IMG/VR virus record: IMGVR_UViG_3300045973_001145 | Coordinates: 1-56,859 of that record | From: a virus | Direction: 5' to 3' (one strand) | Length of the DNA: 56,859 nt | Shown here: piece by piece, positions 6,023 through 52,618 of the stretch | Numbering within the stretch: position 1 is the stretch's first letter | Layout of the letters: each line of letters begins with the position of its first letter | Translations under genes and position numbers: made by a program | Notes under the pieces: model-generated | Databases searched by the model: none | What the model was told of the DNA's origin: nothing | The model's input: only the letters and a program-made list of their open reading frames with translations

Positions 6023-6511
6023 ATGAAATATTTAAAGACTTTTGAAAATAGCTATGAAAGAACAATAGTTTATGAATATGTTTCTGAGCAAAATCGTATT
6101 AAGATTGAAAATTTTGTTCGGGAGTATATGAATAAAGATGAATTTTTTAAAAAAGTTAATCGCTTAAATAAGACTCATTTTGAAAACGATAATTATATTT
6201 ATAGAGATATTTTTAATACAATATTATCTGCAAATAAATATATATATTGGGAGATTGATAGATTTTGTTTGATTAATGATATAAATGAAAGTGCACCAGC
6301 TATTAGAAATACTTTAGTCGGTGTTTTACAAGAAATATATAAAGAATATTACTCTGAATTTAAACAAAAATTAGATGATAAATTAGTATCAATATTTGAA
6401 AAAAATCCAGATGAATATAAATCAAAATATCGTCTTATTTCTCAAAAACTTAACTCAGATGTTAAAAAAAGATGTGAATGGATGTTAATGACCGATAAAT
6501 ATAATTTATAA
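6023..6511 (+). CDS. Hypothetical protein with MKYLKTFE N-terminus
   Basis: The 162-residue helical protein begins MKYLKTFENS. The same octapeptide, or a near variant, opens unrelated products at 22627-23106, 54207-54497 and 54953-55138, so it looks like a detachable tag. The rest is Lys/Glu/Asn-rich without known domains. It is the first gene of a three-gene rightward operon that ends at the terminator at 7162-7189. Confidence 0.65.
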   Translation: MKYLKTFENSYERTIVYEYVSEQNRIKIENFVREYMNKDEFFKKVNRLNKTHFENDNYIYRDIFNTILSANKYIYWEIDRFCLINDINESAPAIRNTLVGVLQEIYKEYYSEFKQKLDDKLVSIFEKNPDEYKSKYRLISQKLNSDVKKRCEWMLMTDKYNL

Positions 6512-6515
6512 AGCT

Positions 6516-6776
6516 ATGAAAAATATTAAAAATGTTAGATTGTTTAAGGAAAGCCTTAGTTATTGTGATAGTTGTCATATGTTATCTGATACAAGAATGT
6601 GCAACTTTTGTCAAATTTTAGATATACTTGGTATAACTAAAGAAGAAGATGCTGATAATATTTATGGAAAATTGAAATATTATAAAAATTTCAAAGATAA
6701 AAATTATGCGATAGATTTTATTGATACTCTTAAAATATCAGATGAACAAAAAGAAAAAATAATAGAATTGTTATGA
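6516..6776 (+). CDS. Small Cys-rich hypothetical protein
   Basis: The 86-residue product has two CxxC knuckles near residues 17-31 (CDSCH and CNFC), which suggests a zinc-binding N-terminal part, and a helical C-terminus. Its start (MKNIKNVRLFKES) is a loose version of the N-terminal tag of its neighbour. The next gene starts inside its stop (ATGA). Confidence 0.6.
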   Translation: MKNIKNVRLFKESLSYCDSCHMLSDTRMCNFCQILDILGITKEEDADNIYGKLKYYKNFKDKNYAIDFIDTLKISDEQKEKIIELL

Positions 6777-7132
6777 AAAAATATGAAGAATTCAAGAAAA
6801 TGAATGAACTATTAGCAACTACTCCAGTAGATTTGAAGTATGTTGATAGAGAAACTAGTGATAAAGAAATTTTAAGATTAGCTATAATTGGAGAATTGGA
6901 CGCAGTTAGTTTATATGAGCAATTAGCAGAAACAGCAAAGGATGATAAAGTTAAAACCACTTTATTGAAAATTGCTAAAGAAGAAAAAACTCATGTTGGT
7001 GAGCTTCAACAATTATTAAAAGAATTAGATCCTGAATATAAGAAAGAGTTAAAAAAAGGAAAAGAGGAAGTTAAGAAAGATGAAGAAGATGATGATAAAG
7101 ATGATAAAGATAATGCAATTCAAAAAACTTAA
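6773..7132 (+). CDS. Ferritin-like protein with acidic tail
   Basis: The 119-residue protein has the two-helix pattern of encapsulated-ferritin/rubrerythrin-type domains: E41 in GELDAVSLYEQ, then E71-x2-H74 in KEEKTH. These match the iron-ligand positions of that family. An N-terminal MKKYEEFKKM precedes it and a strongly acidic tail (KDEEDDDKDDKD) follows. The N-terminus recalls the capsid-targeting peptides of T4 internal proteins (MKTYQEF...). Packaging into the head is a hypothesis. The domain assignment is fairly secure. Confidence 0.7.
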   Translation: MKKYEEFKKMNELLATTPVDLKYVDRETSDKEILRLAIIGELDAVSLYEQLAETAKDDKVKTTLLKIAKEEKTHVGELQQLLKELDPEYKKELKKGKEEVKKDEEDDDKDDKDNAIQKT

Positions 7133-7161: not shown

Positions 7162-7189
7162 AAAAAAGCCACCTCACGGTGGCTTTTTT
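7162..7189 (+). terminator. Intrinsic terminator
   Basis: The hairpin AAGCCACC-TCAC-GGTGGCTT is flanked by an A run and a T run, so it can act in both directions. It closes the 6023-7132 operon. Confidence 0.85.
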
Positions 7190-8986: not shown

Positions 8987-10420
8987 CTACAAAGGTTTTA
9001 TAGGTAAATTATAATACCAAGAATAAAAATCTATATCAGTAGATTTTCGTTGCCTAGACCAATATGATATTGAAATCCAATAATAAGCTTGACCAGAAGC
9101 TAATGCAGGTAATCTAGTTTCTGTTGCAGGAATATTTTTATACTTACGAAATCTATATTGGTTATAATTTATTCTACTATTTACTACACAATTTTGAGTT
9201 TGCCAAGTTCCTGTTGAATTAGTAACTGGAACTAATGGAATTGTTTTATATCCAACAATTTTTGTTGTATCTAATACCATTCTATGACAATATATTAGAT
9301 ATTGATTAAACAGTGCATAATCTTCTATTTTTATTGTTGCTGGTGGTGGTCCAAAAATTGGTAATATTTTATAAGATGCATTATAATCATCAAGACTTGA
9401 TTTTCTTTGAAGTACATAATATGAAACCTTAGTCCAACTAATTGTTTTCCCAGTTGGTAAAATAGGCAATCTAGTTTCTGTTGAAGGAATACTTTTGTAT
9501 TTTTTAAATCTATATGGATTATAATTATTTGAAACTGTATTAATTATTTTTTGAGTAATATTAAAATTATTAGCGACTAATGGTTCAGAATATCCGACAA
9601 TTTTTACTGAATCTAATACTAATGTATTACAATAAGTTAGATATAGTCCAAATAGAGTTTTATCTTCAAATTTAACAGTTGATGGCGTTGTACCATAGCT
9701 GTAAGTTATTGTATTTGTATTTACTGTTAAATTTGTAATTACTGTGCTATCAGCGCCTAAAATAGATTTAAGATTTCTTGTATATTGTCCAGATATGGTA
9801 TGACCATTATAAATATGACCATTATTTATTGTTATATTTTCTGTTACTGTGTATTTTATTAATTTACAATACCAAGAATAAAAATCAGTGGTACTAGATT
9901 TTCTTTGAAGACAAGGATAAACAATTGTTGACCAATTTGCAATTTTACCTGTAGGTAATGTAGGCATTCTTGTTTCAGTTGATGGAATATTTTTCCATTT
10001 TTTAAGTCGGTATGGATTATAGTTATTAGTAGCTGAGCAAACAATATTTTGAGTTAAATATACACCGCTTTGAACTATAGGTGTAGCATATCCTATTATT
10101 TTAACTGTATCATAAACTATTTTATTGCAATACACAAGATATAATTTGTATAATTCAATATCTTTAGTTTTTAATCCTGTTGTTGATATTGTACCATATG
10201 TGAATGTTGAAGAACCAGTAATAGCTAGAGTAGTGCTTATGATACTGTCACAATTTGTGTGAATTGTTTTTAGTGTTCTTAGATATTTACCAGAAGTTGT
10301 GAATGTGTAATAACTTTGACCACCTGTGATTGTGATATTTTCAGTTATTGAATAGGTGCATTGAGAATACCCTATAAATGAAATAAATATTAATGCTAAA
10401 AAAAGAATTAATGTTTTCAT
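8987..10420 (-). CDS. Secreted three-repeat surface protein, host-like
   Basis: The 477-residue protein has an N-terminal signal peptide (MKTLILFLALIFISFIGYSQ) and three diverged copies of a roughly 115-residue module. Each module has YL.YC, KI.GY, NYN.YR.KK, IP.TETR.P.L and QRKS in order. Modules one and two are preceded by a sequence of the type TENITI-x-G...CDSII...L.I. This resembles the GCDSI..L.LT repeats of Bacteroidota surface proteins. It is probably exported or displayed on the cell. A phage origin for such a host-like protein is unusual. Function is unknown. Confidence 0.65.
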   Translation of the reverse strand: MKTLILFLALIFISFIGYSQCTYSITENITITGGQSYYTFTTSGKYLRTLKTIHTNCDSIISTTLAITGSSTFTYGTISTTGLKTKDIELYKLYLVYCNKIVYDTVKIIGYATPIVQSGVYLTQNIVCSATNNYNPYRLKKWKNIPSTETRMPTLPTGKIANWSTIVYPCLQRKSSTTDFYSWYCKLIKYTVTENITINNGHIYNGHTISGQYTRNLKSILGADSTVITNLTVNTNTITYSYGTTPSTVKFEDKTLFGLYLTYCNTLVLDSVKIVGYSEPLVANNFNITQKIINTVSNNYNPYRFKKYKSIPSTETRLPILPTGKTISWTKVSYYVLQRKSSLDDYNASYKILPIFGPPPATIKIEDYALFNQYLIYCHRMVLDTTKIVGYKTIPLVPVTNSTGTWQTQNCVVNSRINYNQYRFRKYKNIPATETRLPALASGQAYYWISISYWSRQRKSTDIDFYSWYYNLPIKPL

Positions 10421-10440
10421 AATTTGTGTTTTAGAAAAAT

Positions 10441-10581
10441 ATTACCGCTATGGTTTCGGACCATAACAACAGGACCGCTCCTGTTTGCTCTATTTTCAGG
10501 TAATTACTCCTTATCTTCAAGTTCCGTATTGTAATTCGTGCGCACTCTATACAATCAAAGCTAGCCAATAGCTACGGTAAT
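10441..10581. ncRNA. Candidate structured RNA (multi-helix junction)
   Basis: This gap of relatively high GC is closed by an exact 7-bp stem, ATTACCG (10441-10447) with CGGTAAT (10575-10581). Inside are exact hairpins: TATGGT/ACCATA (10449-10465), AACAGGA/TCCTGTT (10468-10485), ATTGTA/TACAAT (10528-10555) and AGCTA/TAGCT (10559-10573). Four perfect helices within one closing helix are hard to explain by chance in such AT-rich DNA. Neighbouring genes run leftward, so a minus-strand leader of the 8987-10420 gene or a free-standing RNA is likeliest. I cannot match it to a known class. Confidence 0.6.
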
Positions 10582-10587
10582 AATTTT

Positions 10588-10866
10588 TTATTTTACTTTT
10601 TTTATTTGTTTTAGGATCTTTTCACGATCTTTTATTTGACCTTCGTTATACGAAATATTTTTCTCGTATTGACGAATTTCATCATTTTTTTGCTTGATTG
10701 CAGATTTTTTCAACTGTTTATCTTTTTTGACATCTTCTTTCAATCTAACAATTTCTTTGTTTAATTGAACACTGTATTCATTTTGGACTACAGGAACAGG
10801 TTTTTGAGCAACTGTTACAATTGAAATTGCAACTACCAACATAATCATTACCATTAACTTTCTCAT
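10588..10866 (-). CDS. Exported coiled-coil protein
   Basis: The 92-residue product has a signal peptide (about residues 1-20, ending TVAQ) and then an almost entirely Lys/Glu/Gln-rich helical region. It may be periplasmic. It lies just upstream of the structured RNA and in the same direction. Confidence 0.6.
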   Translation of the reverse strand: MRKLMVMIMLVVAISIVTVAQKPVPVVQNEYSVQLNKEIVRLKEDVKKDKQLKKSAIKQKNDEIRQYEKNISYNEGQIKDREKILKQIKKVK

Positions 10867-10886
10867 AATTTTACTTTTTTTTTTGG

Positions 10887-11351
10887 TTAAAAATCTTTAT
10901 ATTGTGGATATTTTTTTAATAATTCTATATCATAATGGACGAATGATTCATTGTAATTTCCATCAATGTCATAATTAACTTGGATATAGTTATTGTGCCA
11001 TTCTTGTTTTATAAACTTAGATTCAAAATTTTTATCTAAGTAATCTTGATATTTAAAAAGCATTTTATCATTTTTTGGATAATATCTAACTCCATATAAA
11101 TTATTATCTATTAATAATAAAACAACTTTAATTGTTCGTTGTTTATACACATATTCGTTAAGTGTGATTCTTGTCACATCATTATCGAAGCTGTAATAGT
11201 TCAATTCATTCATATCAACTTTTTCTTTCAAAGTTTTTTCATTGTCATATCCAAGAATAAACTTGTTTAATACAGTTTTAGCCTTAGCATCTTTTTGTGA
11301 AAATGAATTCAATGAAAAAAGTAAACAAAATAACATTAACAAGGTTTTCAT
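10887..11351 (-). CDS. Exported hypothetical protein
   Basis: The 154-residue protein has a typical Bacteroidota signal peptide (MKTLLMLFCLLFSLNSFSQ) followed by a basic, aromatic-rich mature region with no known motif. Its start overlaps the stop of the upstream gene (ATGA-type, 11348-11351). Envelope location is likely and the role is unknown. Confidence 0.6.
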   Translation of the reverse strand: MKTLLMLFCLLFSLNSFSQKDAKAKTVLNKFILGYDNEKTLKEKVDMNELNYYSFDNDVTRITLNEYVYKQRTIKVVLLLIDNNLYGVRYYPKNDKMLFKYQDYLDKNFESKFIKQEWHNNYIQVNYDIDGNYNESFVHYDIELLKKYPQYKDF

Positions 11352-11545
11352 ATTTTCTTATTTTTTAGTAAATGTTTTACATTATTGAAAATTAAATATA
11401 CTCCATAGCAAATACCAAATATTATAGCTAATACTACTGTTAGCATAGTAACAAACATTAATGATACAATAGTCCAGCAAAAAAGAACTGCCATAATAGA
11501 AATTAGTAACAGTTTATACCCATATCCTGCAAGTTTTTTCATCAT
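11348..11545 (-). CDS. Small two-span membrane protein
   Basis: The 65-residue product has two hydrophobic segments (about 11-32 and 34-55) and a Lys-rich end. It overlaps both neighbours by 4 nt, so the three envelope genes 11910-10887 are translationally coupled. Confidence 0.6.
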   Translation of the reverse strand: MMKKLAGYGYKLLLISIMAVLFCWTIVSLMFVTMLTVVLAIIFGICYGVYLIFNNVKHLLKNKKI

Positions 11546-11910
11546 TCTCTTTCTTTTATTTCAAAAAATTTAGACTTTAATAGAAAATCAAAATGTACAA
11601 TATCCCCAACTCTATGATTATAGATCCATACATTATCTATATGAATTTTACTATGTAATTTGCAGGTATTAAGTTCTCTATATTGTTTTGGACCATCGAT
11701 AGTTTCAAGCAATATAGTATTACAAGTTTCTGGTTTATGAAATTTATCGTCACTTAGAACAGTTTCTCCGTTTATTGATGTGATTTTCATATCAATATTT
11801 CTGACAAACTTATCTTCAACTGTTCTATGAGAACAAGATATAATAAACATAGAAATAAATAGAACATAGCTAATAGACAAAACACGCCAATATGATACTT
11901 TTATTCTCAT
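11542..11910 (-). CDS. Lipoprotein-like exported protein
   Basis: The 122-residue product has a signal sequence ending in the lipobox IISC|SH. The mature region is beta-rich with two further Cys residues (TCN and TCK). It is the first of three overlapping envelope-protein genes. No function is recognised. Confidence 0.6.
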   Translation of the reverse strand: MRIKVSYWRVLSISYVLFISMFIISCSHRTVEDKFVRNIDMKITSINGETVLSDDKFHKPETCNTILLETIDGPKQYRELNTCKLHSKIHIDNVWIYNHRVGDIVHFDFLLKSKFFEIKERE

Positions 11911-11924
11911 AAATTTGAATTTTT

Positions 11925-11963
11925 AAAAAAAATCTGATACTCAAATGAATACCAGATTTTTTT
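11925..11963 (-). terminator. Intrinsic terminator
   Basis: On the minus strand a 12-bp stem (11931-11942 with 11947-11958), including two G-U pairs and a 4-nt loop, is followed by a U run. It ends transcription of the 11999-12601 gene. Confidence 0.75.
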
Positions 11964-11998
11964 GACTTGAATTTAACTATAAAAAATGAAAAATGAAC

Positions 11999-12601
11999 TT
12001 ACTTTGTTTCTTTCAACATCAGAACTGGATTCGTGTCACTCAAAAGTCCTTCAACATCGCCATTGTTCAAAGTGAAAGCTTCGTTGATTGCATCACTTTT
12101 GATGTTGTAAACAACTTTGTTTACGAAAAGTTCTTCTTTTTCTGAGTCTGTCATAAAGTCAGCACTCATAATAAGAGCTTCCAATTTGTCAGCATATTTA
12201 TTCAACAGGTCGTTGTTCATAACAACTTCTGATTTTTCTTCAACGAAGGTATCTCCGTATTTTTCACGAAGTTCAGTTGCTCTTTCTTCGTCAACTGATC
12301 CGGCATATTTCTTCATTACGATGAACATCACTTTGTCGCCTTTTTCAGAAGCAACCTTAATTGATTCTGGATTTCTTTTCAACTTTGAATACATCTTCAC
12401 ATATTCTTCAAAAGCAACAGATTTAATGTCACCTTCAATACTTTTCTGCTCGGCAGTCTTATTTTTGATTTCTTCTTTCAACTTATTATATTTTGAAAGT
12501 TTACTAGCGAAGTCTTCACCAGGTACTACTGCTACTGGATGTGTGTCTGCCTTTGTTGTTGCTTTCTTAGCTTCTACTACTTTTTTACCGAACATTGCCA
12601 T
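11999..12601 (-). CDS. Probably abundant hypothetical protein
   Basis: The 200-residue product (MAMFGKKVVEAKK...) has an Ala/Lys/Thr-rich N-terminus, a Lys/Glu helical stretch at about residues 35-60 and an acidic C-terminal half. Its codons are clearly richer in G and C than those of its neighbours, like gp32. It has its own strong promoter (12641) and terminator (11925), so high expression is likely. I chose the start at 12601 because longer starts would lie in the promoter region. No homologous family is recognised. Confidence 0.65.
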   Translation of the reverse strand: MAMFGKKVVEAKKATTKADTHPVAVVPGEDFASKLSKYNKLKEEIKNKTAEQKSIEGDIKSVAFEEYVKMYSKLKRNPESIKVASEKGDKVMFIVMKKYAGSVDEERATELREKYGDTFVEEKSEVVMNNDLLNKYADKLEALIMSADFMTDSEKEELFVNKVVYNIKSDAINEAFTLNNGDVEGLLSDTNPVLMLKETK

Positions 12602-24614: not shown

Positions 24615-25574
24615 TTATTGATCATCTGAATCCAATTCAAAAAAGTCTCCAGCGTCATCGGTATCTTCACCAAATGTATCTTCTTCTTTTGTTGATATAT
24701 CATCATTTTTAGATGATTTAGCTGCTTTTTGAGTAGAGTTAATTTCATTACCATTAAGAATTTCTAAAATTTGGGTAACTTTATATTTTTCTTCTGATGT
24801 CCATTCTGCTTTTGGCATATGATCTTCCAAATTAACTATTCTATCCATTAAGAAAGTTGTAATTTTTTCTTTTGCTTTCGCATTAGTAATTTTACTTTTT
24901 CCAGTTTTTTCATCAATTTCAACTGGTGCTTTAACAAATTTACCATCTTTACCAGGAATTTGAATTGGACTAATATCCATAAATGTGCTAGAATCGTAAT
25001 TAGGAAATTCACCAAGTTGCTTCATAACAAGTTTGAAATTTTTACCATTAGCAATATCAAAAACATTACAAGGATCACCAGAAATACCATCTTTTTGATC
25101 TTTAATTTTTTCCTTGATCTTGTAACCATAAGGATAGATTAAAATTTTACCTTCTAATTCACGATTTTGTTCATCTTCAATAACAAGAATATATGAATAA
25201 TATTTTGTATTTCTACTAATCAAAGCTGCTTTTTCAACGTCAGAAGCATTTTTTGAATTAAATAGTTTCCAATACATAGTACAGAAATCACATTTGTCTG
25301 TAAAATTTTTCATACAATCATAATATCCAGCTAATTCAGGATGATTTTTGAAGTCAACATAATGTTGGTGTTTTTCAATTGCTGCTTGAGCTACTTTGCC
25401 TTCTTTTGTGAGATTAGGTAAGAACCTAATTGTTGCTACATAACCTTTCTTTTTGTCTGTTATTTTTGGACGGAAGATGCCATCTAATGCACCACCTTTT
25501 TTTTCTAGAAAATCTAGAGTTTCACTACCTGCGTCAATACTGTCGAATATATCGACATTTTCAATTTCTCTCAT
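24615..25574 (-). CDS. T4 gp32-like single-stranded DNA-binding protein
   Basis: The 319-residue protein has the layout of T4 gp32. There is an N-terminal self-interaction region, a DNA-binding core with a zinc site (H78, C87, C95, C98, in the order His-Cys-Cys-Cys) and an acidic C-terminal tail (EDTFGEDTDDAGDFFELDSDD). The family coats single-stranded DNA in replication, repair and recombination and recruits partners through the acidic tail. Codons are richer in G/C than average, as expected for an abundant protein. The leader has repeats that could mediate autoregulation. Confidence 0.85.
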   Translation of the reverse strand: MREIENVDIFDSIDAGSETLDFLEKKGGALDGIFRPKITDKKKGYVATIRFLPNLTKEGKVAQAAIEKHQHYVDFKNHPELAGYYDCMKNFTDKCDFCTMYWKLFNSKNASDVEKAALISRNTKYYSYILVIEDEQNRELEGKILIYPYGYKIKEKIKDQKDGISGDPCNVFDIANGKNFKLVMKQLGEFPNYDSSTFMDISPIQIPGKDGKFVKAPVEIDEKTGKSKITNAKAKEKITTFLMDRIVNLEDHMPKAEWTSEEKYKVTQILEILNGNEINSTQKAAKSSKNDDISTKEEDTFGEDTDDAGDFFELDSDDQ

Positions 25575-39471: not shown

Positions 39472-40290
39472 TTAATAATTAAAAATTAGAATCTCTTGTG
39501 AATTTGTTATATTTTTTCTTCTTGCAACACCATCGTAATTAAAATCTAATATCTTATAGTTATATCCATCACTAATTAGATTGTCAATTATTTCTGATCT
39601 TTTTTTATCCATATGCTCACCTAATAATCCAGATATTGCAAATGAATGACCTTGACTATCTACTTTTTTAAGATACTCATAAAGTCTATTTTCTAAATTT
39701 TGTGACCAATATCTATTATATCCGGCTAATGTATTCGTATATGGTGGATCACAGTAGATCATAGATGGTTTTGTTGGTTTTATTTCATAAAAGTTTTTAC
39801 TTGCGTAGAAAATATTATCAGAATAATTTGAAATGTGCTCAATAAATATATTAACTTTTTTCTCAACACTATCATTCCAACCTCTCTTACCCCAAGTTTG
39901 GTTAAAAATTCCTTTTTGATTATATCTTAGCATATTATTAGTGCAAGATAGCATTAAAGCATAAAGTTCTTCTGGACTATTTTTTTTATTGAAAGATTCT
40001 CTTAGCTCAAGGTATAGCTGTTGATTTTCCTTAGTTTTTGCAAGGTTTTTGACACTTTCTATGAATTCGTGAGGATTACTACTTAGGTTTTTATGTATCT
40101 CTATAAGTTCATATAATACATCGTTTATAAGAATTTTTTTATATTTATCTAAGACATTTGTATAGACTGAGCCACCGCCACAAAATAAGTCAATGAAGTA
40201 ATCTTTTGAATAATCAAATAATGGAAGTAGTTGATCAAGTAGTTTGAATTTTGAACCAGAATAGTTCATTGGTGAATTAACGTAACTCAT
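39472..40290 (-). CDS. Dam-type (D12 class) adenine methyltransferase
   Basis: The 272-residue protein has the alpha-class order of Dam/DpnM enzymes: N-terminal NYSGSKFKLL and DLFCGGGS (34-41) for SAM binding, then the catalytic DPPYTNT. It probably methylates adenine at a short palindrome, GATC being the commonest in the family. Its start overlaps the tagged gene upstream by 14 bp. Confidence 0.85.
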   Translation of the reverse strand: MSYVNSPMNYSGSKFKLLDQLLPLFDYSKDYFIDLFCGGGSVYTNVLDKYKKILINDVLYELIEIHKNLSSNPHEFIESVKNLAKTKENQQLYLELRESFNKKNSPEELYALMLSCTNNMLRYNQKGIFNQTWGKRGWNDSVEKKVNIFIEHISNYSDNIFYASKNFYEIKPTKPSMIYCDPPYTNTLAGYNRYWSQNLENRLYEYLKKVDSQGHSFAISGLLGEHMDKKRSEIIDNLISDGYNYKILDFNYDGVARRKNITNSQEILIFNY

Positions 40291-40597
40291 TTATTTTTTT
40301 TAATTTTTCTTTTCTTAGATTAATCTCACCTATATATTTACAGCCTTGTGAACTCATATGTTTTTCATAATCTTCTTCAAACCAACTCCAATCAAATCCG
40401 TCTCCTTCAAACCATGATGACGATTTACTTTTTGTGCAAGATATATAAACATATTTTGGCTTTGGATTGTCATTTAAATATTCCATAAAATCTGAGCCTT
40501 CTTCTAAAAGAATGTGTATGTAATCAGGTCTTACTTTTAAGTATTCCATACATAATTTAATATCTGAGTTATTCTTTATTTTCCAAAAATTTGACAT
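40277..40597 (-). CDS. Hypothetical protein with RKEKLKKIN C-terminal tag
   Basis: The 106-residue acidic, Trp-rich protein ends INLRKEKLKKINELR, an exact-type member of the shared tail. The tail codons contain the start codon of the Dam-type gene (AAATGAG). The N-terminal body is not recognised. Confidence 0.65.
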   Translation of the reverse strand: MSNFWKIKNNSDIKLCMEYLKVRPDYIHILLEEGSDFMEYLNDNPKPKYVYISCTKSKSSSWFEGDGFDWSWFEEDYEKHMSSQGCKYIGEINLRKEKLKKINELR

Positions 40598-40796
40598 TAT
40601 TTAGTTTTTTCAATTTTTCTTTTCTAATTTCTTTGATAGTTGAAAATCTTTCTTTATAAAAACCATATCTACGATTATTATCATCTATTATACGATAGAA
40701 ATTACTTTCGTTAGTAAGTAGTGGTAATGTTTCATATATTTTACCAATTGTTAATCTAGTATTATTCTCACTATTATCAATGCATATTATTTTCAT
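40569..40796 (-). CDS. SH3-like protein with RKEKLKKLN tag
   Basis: The 75-residue product has a small beta domain (MKIICIDNSE..., IGKIYETLPLL...) and then EIRKEKLKKLNNVKF. The next gene begins inside this tail (AATG). Two further tagged genes flank it, so the tag occurs in three consecutive genes. Confidence 0.65.
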   Translation of the reverse strand: MKIICIDNSENNTRLTIGKIYETLPLLTNESNFYRIIDDNNRRYGFYKERFSTIKEIRKEKLKKLNNVKFLENKE

Positions 40797-41664
40797 TTAG
40801 TTTTTTTAATTTTTCTTTCCTAATTTCTTTATTAGGATCATAATTAAGTTTTGCATTTAAAATAAAATCTGTGTCAAAATTATATAGTTTTATATTGTGA
40901 GATTTTATATAATCATCAATTTCAGTATTACCTTCTTCTGATAATCGGTGAGATATATTCCATGTAGATTCTATTGTTTCTTTTGATTCTTTAGCAATTA
41001 ATCTTCTTTTAGCTATTGATCTTATTCTTTGTTCATCTGATGGAATATTTTCTAAAATTTTGGTTATTAGTTCATCACCACGAAAAAGTCGATTTAATCC
41101 GTTCCAATAATGTGTTGGATCAAATAATAAAATTTTCATATTGAAACCTTGGATTTCATTAAATTTATTCCAATCTTTTTCACGTTGTTTCCATTGTTGT
41201 CTTGGTACATCTTTATCTGGATCACTACTATTTTGACAATACCAATCTTCTAAAAATTCTAATAGAATTTTTTTATGCTCTTGTACAAGAATATTTGGAT
41301 AAACTAAAATTTTTCGATTAGAAATAGCTTCTAAGGATATATTTAAATGTACAGTAAAGTCATTTCTTTGAGATGATTCAGCTAAAATTTTTGAAGCTTG
41401 AAAAATATACGATAATACAGTTATTTCGTCTGTTATTATTTCACTTATTTTTTTCTGTATTTCTGAATCTCCATGAGAATCGTAGCCAATATTTTTAACA
41501 CAATCCATTCCGCCATCAAAGTGATCAACAAAAAGTTCTGCATATTTTTTTGCTAATTCATTTTTTGATGCCTCTTTGAATCTATCTAATCTTTTTACAA
41601 TTTCATCTTGAATGTATTTGATGCTTTTTCTAGACATCATTCCATCATATGCTGCTAAACTCAT
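40777..41664 (-). CDS. Large hypothetical protein with RKEKLKKLN tag
   Basis: The 295-residue helical protein has no recognised domain. It ends EIRKEKLKKLNENNMH, nearly identical to the tails of the next two genes, although the bodies are unrelated. The next gene starts inside the tail. It overlaps the HD-protein gene by 4 bp upstream. Confidence 0.65.
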   Translation of the reverse strand: MSLAAYDGMMSRKSIKYIQDEIVKRLDRFKEASKNELAKKYAELFVDHFDGGMDCVKNIGYDSHGDSEIQKKISEIITDEITVLSYIFQASKILAESSQRNDFTVHLNISLEAISNRKILVYPNILVQEHKKILLEFLEDWYCQNSSDPDKDVPRQQWKQREKDWNKFNEIQGFNMKILLFDPTHYWNGLNRLFRGDELITKILENIPSDEQRIRSIAKRRLIAKESKETIESTWNISHRLSEEGNTEIDDYIKSHNIKLYNFDTDFILNAKLNYDPNKEIRKEKLKKLNENNMH

Positions 41665-42498: not shown

Positions 42499-42702
42499 CT
42501 AATTATTTTTGGATATTTCATTCAATTTCTTTAATCTTTTATTTCTTATGAATGAAGTTATTTCATTTTCATTTAATACTTTAACATCTGACCAACAATT
42601 TTCACACATGAAGATATTTTCTAATTCATAACAACTTTTATATAATTTGTTACATTCTTCACAATAATAAATACATTTTTCTGAAGTTTTAAATGATGAC
42701 AT
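42499..42702 (-). CDS. Zinc-ribbon protein with basic C-terminal tag
   Basis: The 67-residue product has two CxxC pairs (CEEC and CENC) forming a zinc ribbon. It ends FIRNKRLKKLNEISKNN, a member of the shared tail. Here the tail is not followed by an overlapping gene, which argues that the peptide itself is selected. Confidence 0.65.
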   Translation of the reverse strand: MSSFKTSEKCIYYCEECNKLYKSCYELENIFMCENCWSDVKVLNENEITSFIRNKRLKKLNEISKNN

Positions 42703-47207: not shown

Positions 47208-50200
47208 TTAATTAAATAGATATTTAATACCAAACATCATTTGCCATCTTGAACTAATACTAGTTGAGTTTTGATATGGTTGAGTAAATGGTGTTGTTCC
47301 TGTTTGGAATGGAAGAGAGAATGAAGGAGTTTTTCCATCAGCAGATAGACCTTCATATTTTATGATATTTGTTGCAGTCGGAATTCTAACTACACCCCAA
47401 TCTCTGTTAATGAAGTTTCCAGCATTAATCATATCCAATGAAAATCTAAGAGTGTTAGTTGAGTTGCCAACTTTAATTTTTAAATCTTGTGTGATATTCA
47501 AATCTAATTTACTATAATAGGGTGCTACAGCGGCATTTCTTTTAGCATATTGACCTCTATGAGTATTCAAATAAGTTGAATTAGAAATAAAAGCGTCCAA
47601 TTGTGACCATATTTGTGCAGATGTTCTTGTATCAGTTGAAGTTCCTGTACCTAAGCCACCAGAACCAACTTTAACTAAATTGATGTCAGTAATAGTTTTT
47701 GGAATATACATCAAGTCATTACCTGAATTACCATCACCATTTAAGTCGCCATTATAAGTATATGAATTTACACCGTTGTTAGCCAATTCATAAATTGCAC
47801 CAACTGATGTAGAAAGATTTTCTCCTTCATTAAGTTTGTATGCAAAATTAGCAATAACTCTATTAGGTTGATAATAAGATGCATAACCTAAATTTACTGA
47901 GTTAGGATCTTGATTAGCAACAGGTGCTGCACTCCATAAGGAAGATGCTGTTGATCCACCTTCTGCGGTGTTCTTAGATACTGAACGGGTGTATGCTACA
48001 CCATAAGATAAATTTTCAGTAGTTCTTTGAACTTTTCCAGTTAAAGTGTAAGTATAACCTTGACTTGAATTGCTCATTAAAATTGCATTACCAATATTAG
48101 GATTAGTCAAAGTTGCTGTTGGCGTTCCACTATAATACTTGTTAGTATTTGCTGTAGTTAAATAACGCATTCTATTATCAACACCACCCAATGCAAATCC
48201 ATTAGATTCATTTAAATTTATGTTAGAATAATAAACTGCATTGATGTCTTGAGTATAATTATATTCAGCACCAATTAGCCAGCCAGCTTCTAATTTCTTA
48301 TCAATAGCTATAGATGATTTCCAAGCTGTTGGATATTTGAAGTTGCTAGATACTAAGGCAGTACTATAAGAAGAATTAGGAGCTCCAGCAGTTGGTAGGT
48401 AAGTTGTAGGATCAGAATTAAATGCAATTTTGCTTTTTGTGAATGAACCAAATTGAATACCATTATTAGATGCCTGATTAGAAATCCAAACGAATGGTGG
48501 AGGTCCTGCAAAAATACCAGATCCGCCTCTTACTTGTAATGTTTTATCGCCAAATGGGTTCCAGTTGAAACCTAATCTTGGTGAAATAATAACATTATTC
48601 ATAGGTGCTTTACCAATATTATAAGTTGAGCCATCTTTGAATTTTAATGCATCAAAGTCTGGATTATCTGTCATTGCTTGTTTGTATAAAGTTTCATCAA
48701 GTCTTAACCCAGCAGTTAAAGTGAAATCATTTGTTACTTTCCATTTATCTTGAATGAACTGAGATAACTCTGTTGAACCTGCATTAGCCCAAGGAAATGC
48801 GCCACCAGGTAAAGCTGAATATTGTAAGTAATATGATTTAGCGTTTGCTGTACCATTTTTTGCTGAATTATAGAAGTCTGTCAAACTATTGAATTGATAA
48901 ACACCTTCATAACCAGGAGCAAATGCATTTTGATATTTCTTAATAGAGTTTTGAGTACCTACTGTTAATTCATGTGAGCCTTTATAATAAGTTAAAATAT
49001 CGTTTAATTGATAAACATCAGTATTTAACTTATTATTATAAGTGTACATTTCATAACCAAATGATGTGTAAATATTACCATTATTTAAAATATCAACCAA
49101 CGGCATTGTTGCACTACTAGAATGAGGCGAACGAAAATCTCTTAATGCGGTATAACCAATTTGTAATTTATTAGATAAACTATTATTAAAATGTGTATTT
49201 AATTCAGCTATTAAAATATTAAAATTGTTATTAATTACATAGCCACTACCAAAGAAAGGCATTGAATATGTACCTGGTTGTCCGCCAGTTGTTTGACCAG
49301 TACCTGGTCTTGAAGTAGATGCATATTGATCAGATGAAGATTTTAAGTAGTTATACTTCAAAGTGAAAGTATTCTTGCTATTAATGTTCCAGTCTAATTT
49401 TGCTGTGATCTTATCAGAATTAGTTTGAAATGAATATCCTTGGAAAGAGCCAGGATCATATCCATATTTAGTTTTTAAGAAACTAGATAAAACTTTCAAA
49501 GTATCTGCGTTTGCCTGAGAATAATTTCCACCAGCAGCATGAGATGCATCAGAAGCTTGCATTGAAGTTGCTGGAGCATTTTGTTTAGATTGTTCACCAC
49601 TTACGAAGAAGAACAATTTATCTTTGATAATTGGACCGCCTAAACTAAATCCTTTGATAGAATAATCAAAAGGAGTTTTTGTAACAGTTGTTGGACCAAC
49701 CTCGTAACCTAAATAATTTTGATTCCTAGAATATTGATAGATACTTCCTATAAATTTGTTTGTACCACTTTTTGTCACTGTGTTAACGCCTGTTCCAGCA
49801 AATCCACCTTGTTTAACATCATAAGGTGACACATTAACCTGAATTTGTTCAATAGCTTCTAATGAAATTGGTTGTGCGCCTGTTTGACCACCTAAGATAG
49901 ATGATAATCCAAATGAATTATTAAAATTAGCGCCATCGACTGTCATGTTATTGTATTGGTTACTTCTACCACCAATATTTAATCCGTTTGATGTTGGTTC
50001 TAATTTTACAAAATCTTGAATTGAACGGTTAATTGTTGGTAAACGATCAACTTGTGTTCTTGTAATTAATTCCTGAGAACCAGTTCTTGAACTACTAAAA
50101 GATTTATCATTAACTGCTGTAACAACAACTTCACCTACTTCTGTAGATTCAACTTTCATTACAAAATTTGCTTTAAAAGTTTGACCTAAATAAAGCATTA

Positions 50201-50474
50201 CATTATCTTGATGTTCTGTTTTTAAACCAACAAAACTAACATCAATTGAATAAGGTCCGCCAATTTTTAAATTTGGTAAATTGTAACGTCCATCATCACG
50301 TGTTGTAGTTCCATACTTTGTACCACTTGGAATGTGAGTTGCAATTACAGTAACATAAGGTAATGCTCCTTCAGTACCAGAAATAACACCCTGAATTTCA
50401 GATGTCGTTTCTTGTGCGTACATAAATAAACTACTAAACGTAAGTAAAAAAAGAAAAATTAATTTTTTAATCAT
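47208..50474 (-). CDS. Oar-like TonB-dependent outer-membrane receptor
   Basis: The 1088-residue protein has a signal peptide (about 1-20), a carboxypeptidase-regulatory-like domain (about 25-110), a plug domain (VEVVVTAVND-like segment, GRSNQYNNMTVDGANFNN, VSPYDVKQGGFAGTGVNTVTK, in part) and a long beta-barrel ending in an aromatic (GIKYLFN). This is the full architecture of Bacteroidota Oar/SusC-type receptors. It has its own terminator and phage genes on both sides. Codons are richer in G/C than nearby genes, which suggests recent acquisition from a host. It may replace or mask the phage receptor. Confidence 0.9.
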   Translation of the reverse strand: MIKKLIFLFLLTFSSLFMYAQETTSEIQGVISGTEGALPYVTVIATHIPSGTKYGTTTRDDGRYNLPNLKIGGPYSIDVSFVGLKTEHQDNVMLYLGQTFKANFVMKVESTEVGEVVVTAVNDKSFSSSRTGSQELITRTQVDRLPTINRSIQDFVKLEPTSNGLNIGGRSNQYNNMTVDGANFNNSFGLSSILGGQTGAQPISLEAIEQIQVNVSPYDVKQGGFAGTGVNTVTKSGTNKFIGSIYQYSRNQNYLGYEVGPTTVTKTPFDYSIKGFSLGGPIIKDKLFFFVSGEQSKQNAPATSMQASDASHAAGGNYSQANADTLKVLSSFLKTKYGYDPGSFQGYSFQTNSDKITAKLDWNINSKNTFTLKYNYLKSSSDQYASTSRPGTGQTTGGQPGTYSMPFFGSGYVINNNFNILIAELNTHFNNSLSNKLQIGYTALRDFRSPHSSSATMPLVDILNNGNIYTSFGYEMYTYNNKLNTDVYQLNDILTYYKGSHELTVGTQNSIKKYQNAFAPGYEGVYQFNSLTDFYNSAKNGTANAKSYYLQYSALPGGAFPWANAGSTELSQFIQDKWKVTNDFTLTAGLRLDETLYKQAMTDNPDFDALKFKDGSTYNIGKAPMNNVIISPRLGFNWNPFGDKTLQVRGGSGIFAGPPPFVWISNQASNNGIQFGSFTKSKIAFNSDPTTYLPTAGAPNSSYSTALVSSNFKYPTAWKSSIAIDKKLEAGWLIGAEYNYTQDINAVYYSNINLNESNGFALGGVDNRMRYLTTANTNKYYSGTPTATLTNPNIGNAILMSNSSQGYTYTLTGKVQRTTENLSYGVAYTRSVSKNTAEGGSTASSLWSAAPVANQDPNSVNLGYASYYQPNRVIANFAYKLNEGENLSTSVGAIYELANNGVNSYTYNGDLNGDGNSGNDLMYIPKTITDINLVKVGSGGLGTGTSTDTRTSAQIWSQLDAFISNSTYLNTHRGQYAKRNAAVAPYYSKLDLNITQDLKIKVGNSTNTLRFSLDMINAGNFINRDWGVVRIPTATNIIKYEGLSADGKTPSFSLPFQTGTTPFTQPYQNSTSISSRWQMMFGIKYLFN

Positions 50475-50589: not shown

Positions 50590-51792
50590 TTAAATATCAT
50601 TGAGAATCTTAATTGCTTTATTTGCAGCATTTACCCATGAGAATTCGGTTCTTATTAATTCTGAATCTTTAAGTGCGATTTCTTTATATTTCCAATAATT
50701 GGTATAAACATCTCTCATTATTTTTGATAAATCATCAAAATCTGGCTGATAATAATTCCCAACAAATCCTGGTATAGCCTTTTCTCCTAAAATTTTAACT
50801 GGATGCCCTTTACCTTTTGCATATTCTAATTGGGCACTACAATTAGAATATATTGATGGTGTACCACAAGCCATAGCTTCTATTAATGGAAGATTAAACC
50901 CCTCTGATCTTGAACAAGATAAGAAAACATGACCATTTCTTAAATAATTAATATAATCTTGTCTTGCTAAGAAATGAAGAACTTTTAATCTATCATCTTT
51001 AAAATTAAAATGATTTAATCTTTCTTCGGTAGTTTTCATACCATCAACTGCATAATCAGCATTATCCACAGCTAATATAAGATCAACAGGCTCATTTTTA
51101 TTAAATGTTTTAAGGAATGTTTGAATAATTTCAGTTGTTGATTTTCTATATTCCCATCTACCAAAGAGTATAAATTTGAATTTATTATCTTTATACATAT
51201 TTAAATTATAATTAAAATAATCTGGATTAAATATATTACCATCAACAGCTTCAGGTATAACAAAAACTTTATTTGCAGGATAACCTTGATTTATAATACA
51301 TTGTTTTTGCCATTCAGATGGACACCAAAATTGATCAAATTTTTTAAGTATTTCGAAAAAATTATTATCGTATAATGTTGATTCCCAAACATTGTAAGCA
51401 ATTTTGAAACCTTTATATTTTTCCATTTGATGAAAATATGGATGATCTGTTTCACTAAGAATAATATCAATAATATTTTCTTGACTATATTTTTTAAGAT
51501 ATTCATTACCATCATTAATTTCATAATCACAAATTCCTGTATCACAATATAATGTTTGTTCACATAATAATGATCTCTGATAATCAGTTATATACAATTC
51601 GTGTTTATGTGGATCATTATAACGACCATAGATGTTTTTTGGTCCTAAGCCAATCCAACTTTTTCCTATTGTAAAATTTCTAAGTTTTAAATCTATTTTT
51701 TGACTTAATGCTGTGAAAAAATCTCTTGCGTGAGCGTTATAGCCAGTTTGCCCAATAAAGCTTGTGTGACCTTTTACGAAATAATTATTCAT
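50590..51792 (-). CDS. GT4-type glycosyltransferase
   Basis: The 400-residue protein has the C-terminal half of GT-B glycosyltransferases: FILFGRWEYRKST near residue 208 and SCSRSEGFNLPLIEAMACGTPSI near 295, with the E-x7-E motif. It would transfer a sugar from a nucleotide-sugar donor. Its start overlaps the tagged gene upstream by 8 bp. Confidence 0.85.
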   Translation of the reverse strand: MNNYFVKGHTSFIGQTGYNAHARDFFTALSQKIDLKLRNFTIGKSWIGLGPKNIYGRYNDPHKHELYITDYQRSLLCEQTLYCDTGICDYEINDGNEYLKKYSQENIIDIILSETDHPYFHQMEKYKGFKIAYNVWESTLYDNNFFEILKKFDQFWCPSEWQKQCIINQGYPANKVFVIPEAVDGNIFNPDYFNYNLNMYKDNKFKFILFGRWEYRKSTTEIIQTFLKTFNKNEPVDLILAVDNADYAVDGMKTTEERLNHFNFKDDRLKVLHFLARQDYINYLRNGHVFLSCSRSEGFNLPLIEAMACGTPSIYSNCSAQLEYAKGKGHPVKILGEKAIPGFVGNYYQPDFDDLSKIMRDVYTNYWKYKEIALKDSELIRTEFSWVNAANKAIKILNDI

Positions 51793-52618
51793 TTCTTATG
51801 CTATTTAATTTTTTAAGTTTTTCTTTTCTATAATAAGAGATGCTTCTCGAATTTAATGTGAGATATTGAGAATATGCACTACCAACAGATGCAATACAGT
51901 AATACATTATAATATGATTTCCTTGTGGTGTTTTTATTTCATCAAATTTAATAAATCCATCAGTATCTGTTAATATTAAACAATGTGTACCTATATTTTC
52001 CATATTATTTTTTCTACCCATTAAAATTAATCCATCATCTATGGAATTGTTAATATTATAAGCTATTGTTCCAAGTTGTAAGATTCCATTACCATCATAA
52101 ACATGTTGAATACCAATTAAATAATTAAGAATATATTTATATGTTTTTGAGTTTGATATCATAAAATTTGCTGGACCTATTCTACCATTAACAGCGATAA
52201 AACTACCAGCAGATATAAATTTTGATAATAGTTTTCTTGATGTTAATACTGAATCATCAGTTTTAAAGTATTTTATATTTATATCTAATCTATTATTATC
52301 TAAATTTTCATTTCTATTTTGTTCACCTAATTTAGATATTTCTTCAATAAAATTTTTTTGTATTCCTGAATTTATAAATTTAATATAGTTGCTATGATTA
52401 TCATCTAAATGATCTTGTGATTTAAATCCTAATCTAATATCAGTTTTAAATGTCTTAGTATAAACTTGAAGTCCTACTGTTGTTGAAAGTGATGATGTTT
52501 GAGCTGAAGGATTATTAATTCTATAATCCATATATGATACATCAATTATGCTATTGTTTACTGGTATTATTGTAAAAAAAGTATTGTTTAGTTCTTCAGG
52601 TTTAATATTAGGTATCAT
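51785..52618 (-). CDS. Hypothetical protein with RKEKLKKLN tag
   Basis: The 277-residue protein has a segment (VNGRIGPANFMISNS near residue 145) loosely reminiscent of T4-type capsid proteins, then a beta-rich end. It finishes SYYRKEKLKKLNSIRNE, an exact tag. The GT4 gene starts inside the last codons. The family is not recognised, and the capsid likeness is a weak impression. Confidence 0.6.
   Translation of the reverse strand: MIPNIKPEELNNTFFTIIPVNNSIIDVSYMDYRINNPSAQTSSLSTTVGLQVYTKTFKTDIRLGFKSQDHLDDNHSNYIKFINSGIQKNFIEEISKLGEQNRNENLDNNRLDINIKYFKTDDSVLTSRKLLSKFISAGSFIAVNGRIGPANFMISNSKTYKYILNYLIGIQHVYDGNGILQLGTIAYNINNSIDDGLILMGRKNNMENIGTHCLILTDTDGFIKFDEIKTPQGNHIIMYYCIASVGSAYSQYLTLNSRSISYYRKEKLKKLNSIRNE

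Follow-up and report, generated by a model that had tools for sequence, protein, structure and literature searches.

A phage-encoded EncFtn-type ferritin with a putative capsid-targeting peptide

We find that a 119-residue protein encoded by a probable large T4-like phage is a member of the encapsulated ferritin (EncFtn) superfamily, with a conserved di-iron site and a 12-residue N-terminal extension, MKKYEEFKKMNE, that resembles the capsid-targeting sequence (CTS) of phage T4 and is absent from cellular homologues. In other phages the same domain is fused to portal or head-maturation-protease-like proteins, or lies between protease and major capsid protein genes. In the absence of virion proteomics, cleavage data or an iron assay, the best reading of these observations is a head-packaged ferroxidase, to which we assign a probability of roughly 0.7. 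EncFtn and T4-type capsid targeting are each known separately; we found no description of their combination, or of the portal fusions, in the open-access papers searched.

Identification of the EncFtn domain

The window analysed here is the whole 56,859-base stretch of IMG/VR record IMGVR_UViG_3300045973_001145, apparently a fragment of a viral genome. Its gp32-like gene is closest to those of uncultured huge phages of 636–735 kb, suggesting a large T4-like phage, although no head genes lie in the window. The ferritin gene is an intact open reading frame from ATG to TAA (Table 1).

Table 1. Coordinates of the ferritin gene, its parts and other features noted in the window and in other loci (L numbers denote the loci retrieved in this study; residue numbers refer to the 119-residue protein)
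Record	Position	Strand	Feature
Window	6023..6511	+	First gene of the run; N-terminus MKYLKTFE, C-terminus KYNL, a tag pair common in this phage lineage
Window	6516..6776	+	Upstream gene, 86 aa; its stop overlaps the EncFtn start (ATGA), so the two are probably co-translated
Window	6773..7132	+	EncFtn-like ferritin gene, 119 aa plus stop
Window	6773..6808	+	N-terminal extension MKKYEEFKKMNE, codons 1-12, capsid-targeting-like; predicted prohead-protease cut after E12
Window	6809..7078	+	EncFtn domain, residues 13-102, starting LLATTPVDL
Window	6893..6895	+	E41, first iron ligand (equivalent to R. rubrum EncFtn E32)
Window	6914..6916	+	Y48, conserved tyrosine near the site
Window	6983..6985	+	E71, bridging iron ligand (equivalent to E62)
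Window	6992..6994	+	H74, iron ligand (equivalent to H65)
Window	7079..7129	+	Acidic C-terminal tail DEEDDDKDDKDNAIQKT
Window	7168..7189	+	GCCACC-TCAC-GGTGGC hairpin followed by T6, likely transcription terminator after the EncFtn gene
Window	24615-25574	-	gp32-like gene
Window	6023-6511, 54207-54497		Genes of the paired end-tag family (also many in L133, L134, L138)
Window	40277-40597, 40569-40796, 40777-41664, 42499-42702, 51785-52618, 56346-56603		Genes of the second C-terminal tag, like RKEKLKKLN
Window	47208-50474		1088-aa protein with an apparent signal peptide that reads like a TonB-dependent outer-membrane receptor, unusual in a phage
L004	8373-10821		Run of genes repeating the peptide NPRxAFEQAL
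L006	3680-6580		Five consecutive genes beginning MRLxxY(I/L/M)xE
L022	5980-8637		885-aa ORF reading portal, EncFtn, DNA topoisomerase IB
L141, L145	5910-8255 (L141), 9913-12336 (L145)		S77-like prohead protease as the N-terminal part of a 780-807 aa protein
L152 (Eggerthella phage LE2-3)	272-3493, 5436-8549		Portal gene and a gene annotated tRNA synthetase, both with intein-like splicing domains

Several lines of evidence place the protein in the EncFtn superfamily, an assignment we regard as nearly certain. First, a Pfam search returns Rubrerythrin (5e-11) and EncFtn-like (PF22277, 1.6e-7; 31.4 bits against a curated cut-off of 27), and NCBIfam ranks EncB_fam first (1.3e-18), although below the cut-off of that model. 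Second, a phmmer search of the PDB places the Pyrococcus furiosus encapsulated ferritin (5n5e) first at E 2.6e-20, with 61% identity over 72 residues (residues 31–102 of the phage protein). Third, an AlphaFold model built from a 35-sequence alignment (mean pLDDT 86.9, with the two main helices mostly above 94) gives a predicted EncFtn hairpin with helices at residues 26–54, 58–85 and 87–117. With this model, the top Foldseek hits are all EncFtn (best 4.6e-5), and the top 13 rows of VIA-align all belong to the EncFtn family (Z 10.6 over 89 residues to 5n5e), ahead of rubrerythrins. We rejected a generic rubrerythrin reading because EncFtn entries outrank rubrerythrins against solved structures by both sequence and fold, although the Pfam Rubrerythrin model scores higher than EncFtn-like. 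Among viral proteins, the best fold match is the 87-aa rubrerythrin-domain protein of Pyrobaculum filamentous virus 1 (A0A140F3M3; TM 0.77 by target length), but at E 0.004 only and in an archaeal filamentous virus rather than an HK97-type head. PHROGs gave only chance-level matches for the window protein.

The original prediction, that E41 and E71-x2-H74 form an iron-ligand pattern resembling that of encapsulated ferritins, is confirmed. The 30- and 3-residue spacing equals that of R. rubrum E32/E62/H65, whose substitution abolishes or lowers ferroxidase activity (PMC11202242). E41, H74, E71 and a fourth site residue, Y48, are invariant in the 35-sequence alignment of viral and cellular relatives and are conserved over a wider set of 39 viral and 78 cellular domains, with one viral sequence shifted by a one-residue insertion; the E..Y part of the latter count is partly selected by the pattern used. 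The predicted MKKYEEF start and acidic tail are also present, except that the tail is mixed-charge overall (10 K/R and 12 D/E over residues 89–119) and only the last ~17 residues (103–119) are clearly acidic. The C-terminus, DDKDNAIQKT, does not carry the LxI(L)x-type targeting peptide of FLP-TP encapsulin cargo described in PMC11202242.

An N-terminal extension resembling the T4 capsid-targeting sequence

To ask whether the N-terminal peptide is a phage addition, we collected 39 viral loci in a virus-wide search and at least 533 candidates in cellular genomes, of which 80 were kept. The cellular proteins, mostly from archaeal and candidate-phyla metagenome-assembled genomes, are about 93 aa and nearly all begin MLSxIPIDL or similar. 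The window protein reads MKKYEEFKKMNE-LLATTPVDL, matching a cellular start such as MLSKIPIDL with 12 residues in front and E12 exactly at the junction. The same joint is seen in L003 (MKNFYEFMKINE-LLATTPVDL), L005 (..MLSE-LLSKIPLD), L007 (..RQLNE-ITSAVPTD), L013 (MKKTLNFDDFLNE-TLSTIPG) and L029 (MKFKEFMLNE-MLSNEMNL). Among 23 non-redundant phage EncFtns, [LI]NE occurs in the N-terminal region in 9 (0.73 expected by shuffling, P 3e-9) and [LI]xE in 17 (8.4 expected, P 6e-5), whereas [LI]NE occurs in 0 of 72 cellular sequences; the phage sequences are partly related, so the true significance is lower than these P values imply.

T4 internal proteins carry a roughly 10-residue CTS that also directs foreign proteins into the head, with residues 4 and 7 governing targeting and residues 8 and 10 governing processing (PMC9026906), and the prohead proteases of T4, phiKZ and SPN3US all cut after glutamate (PMC5694885). 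The window protein has Y4 and F7, followed by M10-N11-E12, a resemblance in sequence. This site is M-N-E rather than the L/I-x-E that is probably the T4 motif and lies two residues further in than that of T4; L003 and L010 have I-N-E. The helical moment of the peptide is not unusual. In huge-phage relatives (L141 and L145), the S77-like prohead protease itself has an N-terminal I-N-E site (LKPINE, LKKINE) like the one in the EncFtn tags, and the L013/L014 lineage has a gp20 portal, gp23 and a weakly matched S77 protease.

Comparable tags are shared with unrelated neighbouring genes in several phages. In L004, a 411-kb virus contig, the EncFtn begins MNPRKAFEQALAK and both flanking genes begin almost identically (scores 55 and 43; best unrelated 21), and a run of genes repeats the peptide NPRxAFEQAL at N-termini and internally, as if one tag were reused on many proteins. 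L012, L013 and L015 share MKxxxxFDxF..E starts with adjacent genes, L024 carries six CTS-like starts (MKFKKYLQE, MRFKRYIDE, MVNFKDYLTE and others) on a 6.6-kb contig, and the five consecutive L006 genes (counted in the near-identical L005) begin with a T4-like targeting-peptide pattern. Overall, CTS-like N-termini occur on 7.7% and 10.1% of ORFs in two sets of loci from related or T4-like phages, against 0.7–1.1% of internal windows and 0.7% of ORFs in cellular loci. In the lineage of the window itself they are only weakly enriched (1.8% against 1.1%), although [LIVM]NE at position 10 occurs 5 times against 0.33 expected, including this gene and an orthologue.

Fusions and gene neighbourhoods in other phages

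Independent evidence comes from phages in which the EncFtn domain is part of a head-related polypeptide. L022 and L026 are single ORFs with a phage portal domain (8e-77 and 8e-72) followed by EncFtn, with L022 continuing into a topoisomerase IB; L021 is a portal–EncFtn ORF by PHROGs (1e-43); and L020 combines EncFtn with DUF2213/head maturation protease. L008 and L023 combine NUDIX with EncFtn, and L008 lies between genes that read as portal-like and capsid-like. Genes of gp23 type occur in 10 records, with the EncFtn on the same strand in 8, mostly within about 15 kb, and in L009 between gp21 and gp23; L028 and L035 are exceptions.

Among cultured phages, a tblastn search of 50,697 records with the window protein found nothing, and queries from L017, L024 and L029 also found none, but L009 found a ferritin-like protein between portal and capsid genes in Eggerthella phage LE2-3. 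The best-scoring portals of cultured relatives of L026 match only its portal part. The huge phages LR756501, LR756502, LR756504 and LR745206, the closest records by the gp32-like gene, have no EncFtn. A sigma-70 scan was no better than shuffles, the T4 late-promoter TATAAATA is not enriched, and a consensus terminator scan reported none near the EncFtn gene despite the hairpin in Table 1, possibly because A–T pairing draws the T run into the stem.

Ancestry and relation to known systems

In a tree of 118 domains, the window protein groups with L003, L010 and L011 (100/94) inside a set of 26 viral rows (97/81). Viral and cellular labels need five changes, so more than one transfer or capture is likely, but the alignment is short and many forks are open. 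No encapsulin family match occurs in 50 genomes holding the closest cellular homologues, or (PF04454) in the window and 39 related virus records, which are fragments, while three of the control genomes are detected. The source is therefore more likely a short stand-alone ferritin than an encapsulin cargo, and the link to encapsulins is by family rather than by direct descent from such a cargo.

The P. furiosus protein PFC_05175 (5n5e; 2e0z) has the same ligands and is the best Foldseek and VIA-align match, but is fused to an encapsulin shell protein, whereas the phage protein is stand-alone. Short ferritin-like proteins (s-FLP, such as N. europaea 3k6c) and the 93-aa archaeal and candidate-phyla homologues share the single domain without a C-terminal targeting peptide, with 50–60% identity to the archaeal set, but start at MLS.IPIDL and lack the extension and acidic tail. 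EncFtns such as R. rubrum 5da5 and M. xanthus EncB/EncC share the fold, here predicted, and the E/E/H site but load into encapsulins by a C-terminal peptide; the putative loading signal here is N-terminal. The T4 internal proteins IPI–IPIII, which are likewise non-conserved accessory proteins, have a short N-terminal MKxYxxF-type peptide followed by a prohead-protease-type E site, but at 8–10 rather than at the predicted 10–12 and on an anti-restriction or unknown protein rather than a ferritin.

Discussion

The original prediction of a ferritin carried in a phage head is supported by these analyses. In our preferred model, the extension binds the assembling scaffold core, a gp21-like protease cuts after E12 to leave a cellular-length EncFtn inside the head, and the subunits form the usual ring with iron sites at subunit interfaces. 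The ferritin may then oxidise Fe(II) in the packaged head and/or be ejected with the DNA, limiting Fenton damage to the genome during packaging or early infection. Packaging into the head is likely; ejection into the host is a more tentative proposal, and a protective role against iron or peroxide damage is inferred from family chemistry only. A broader possibility, about as likely as not, is that tailed phages have installed EncFtn ferroxidases inside HK97-fold heads more than once and by different routes—a removable T4-type targeting peptide, fusion to the portal, and fusion to or placement beside head-protease proteins—in parallel with how encapsulins load the same ferritin, so that the virion carries a working ferroxidase that protects or accompanies the injected genome.

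The leading alternative, which we consider unlikely, is a cytoplasmic auxiliary metabolic gene that manages iron or oxidative stress in the host during infection and is never packaged. In keeping with this, the closest cellular relatives are stand-alone short ferritins, a few beside peroxiredoxin-, superoxide-dismutase- or catalase-like genes, and the window carries other metabolic genes such as an S-adenosylmethionine synthetase. This reading does not, however, explain the N-terminal extension, its protease-type end, the sharing of tags with unrelated genes, or the fusions to portal and head-protease-like proteins in other phages.

Less likely still, the N-terminal peptide could bind another partner, such as a membrane, replication compartment or host protein, and not be removed. 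This lineage has a separate family of small, otherwise dissimilar proteins with paired end tags, MK(Y/H)(I/L)KxFE at the N-terminus and K(Y/F)N(L/I/M) at the C-terminus: of 280 ORFs, 24 have both, 5 only the first and 3 only the second (Fisher P 1e-26). The EncFtn start partly resembles these tags and the gene closes a run of such genes, but the EncFtn lacks the KYNL end and its extension ends at E exactly where cellular homologues begin. A second C-terminal tag ends up to 11 proteins of this lineage, and the same pattern is absent from residues 31–54 of 199 proteins.

Finally, a packaged structural or core filler, in which the ring serves as a scaffold or DNA-condensing body and the metal site is secondary, would fit the fusions and the reported condensation and protection of DNA by the M. 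xanthus encapsulin, which naturally holds ferritin-like cargo (PMC9321382), but is doubtful because conservation of E41, Y48, E71 and H74 across very divergent phage copies, including the fused ones, indicates selection on metal chemistry.

Encapsulins and phage heads share one shell fold, and encapsulins are famous for holding EncFtn. Finding the same ferritin with head-loading signals, and fused to portals, in phages would give a direct functional counterpart on the virus side and would also name a protein-based iron component of phage particles. It further shows how a phage tag system can be read from sequence to predict virion cargo.
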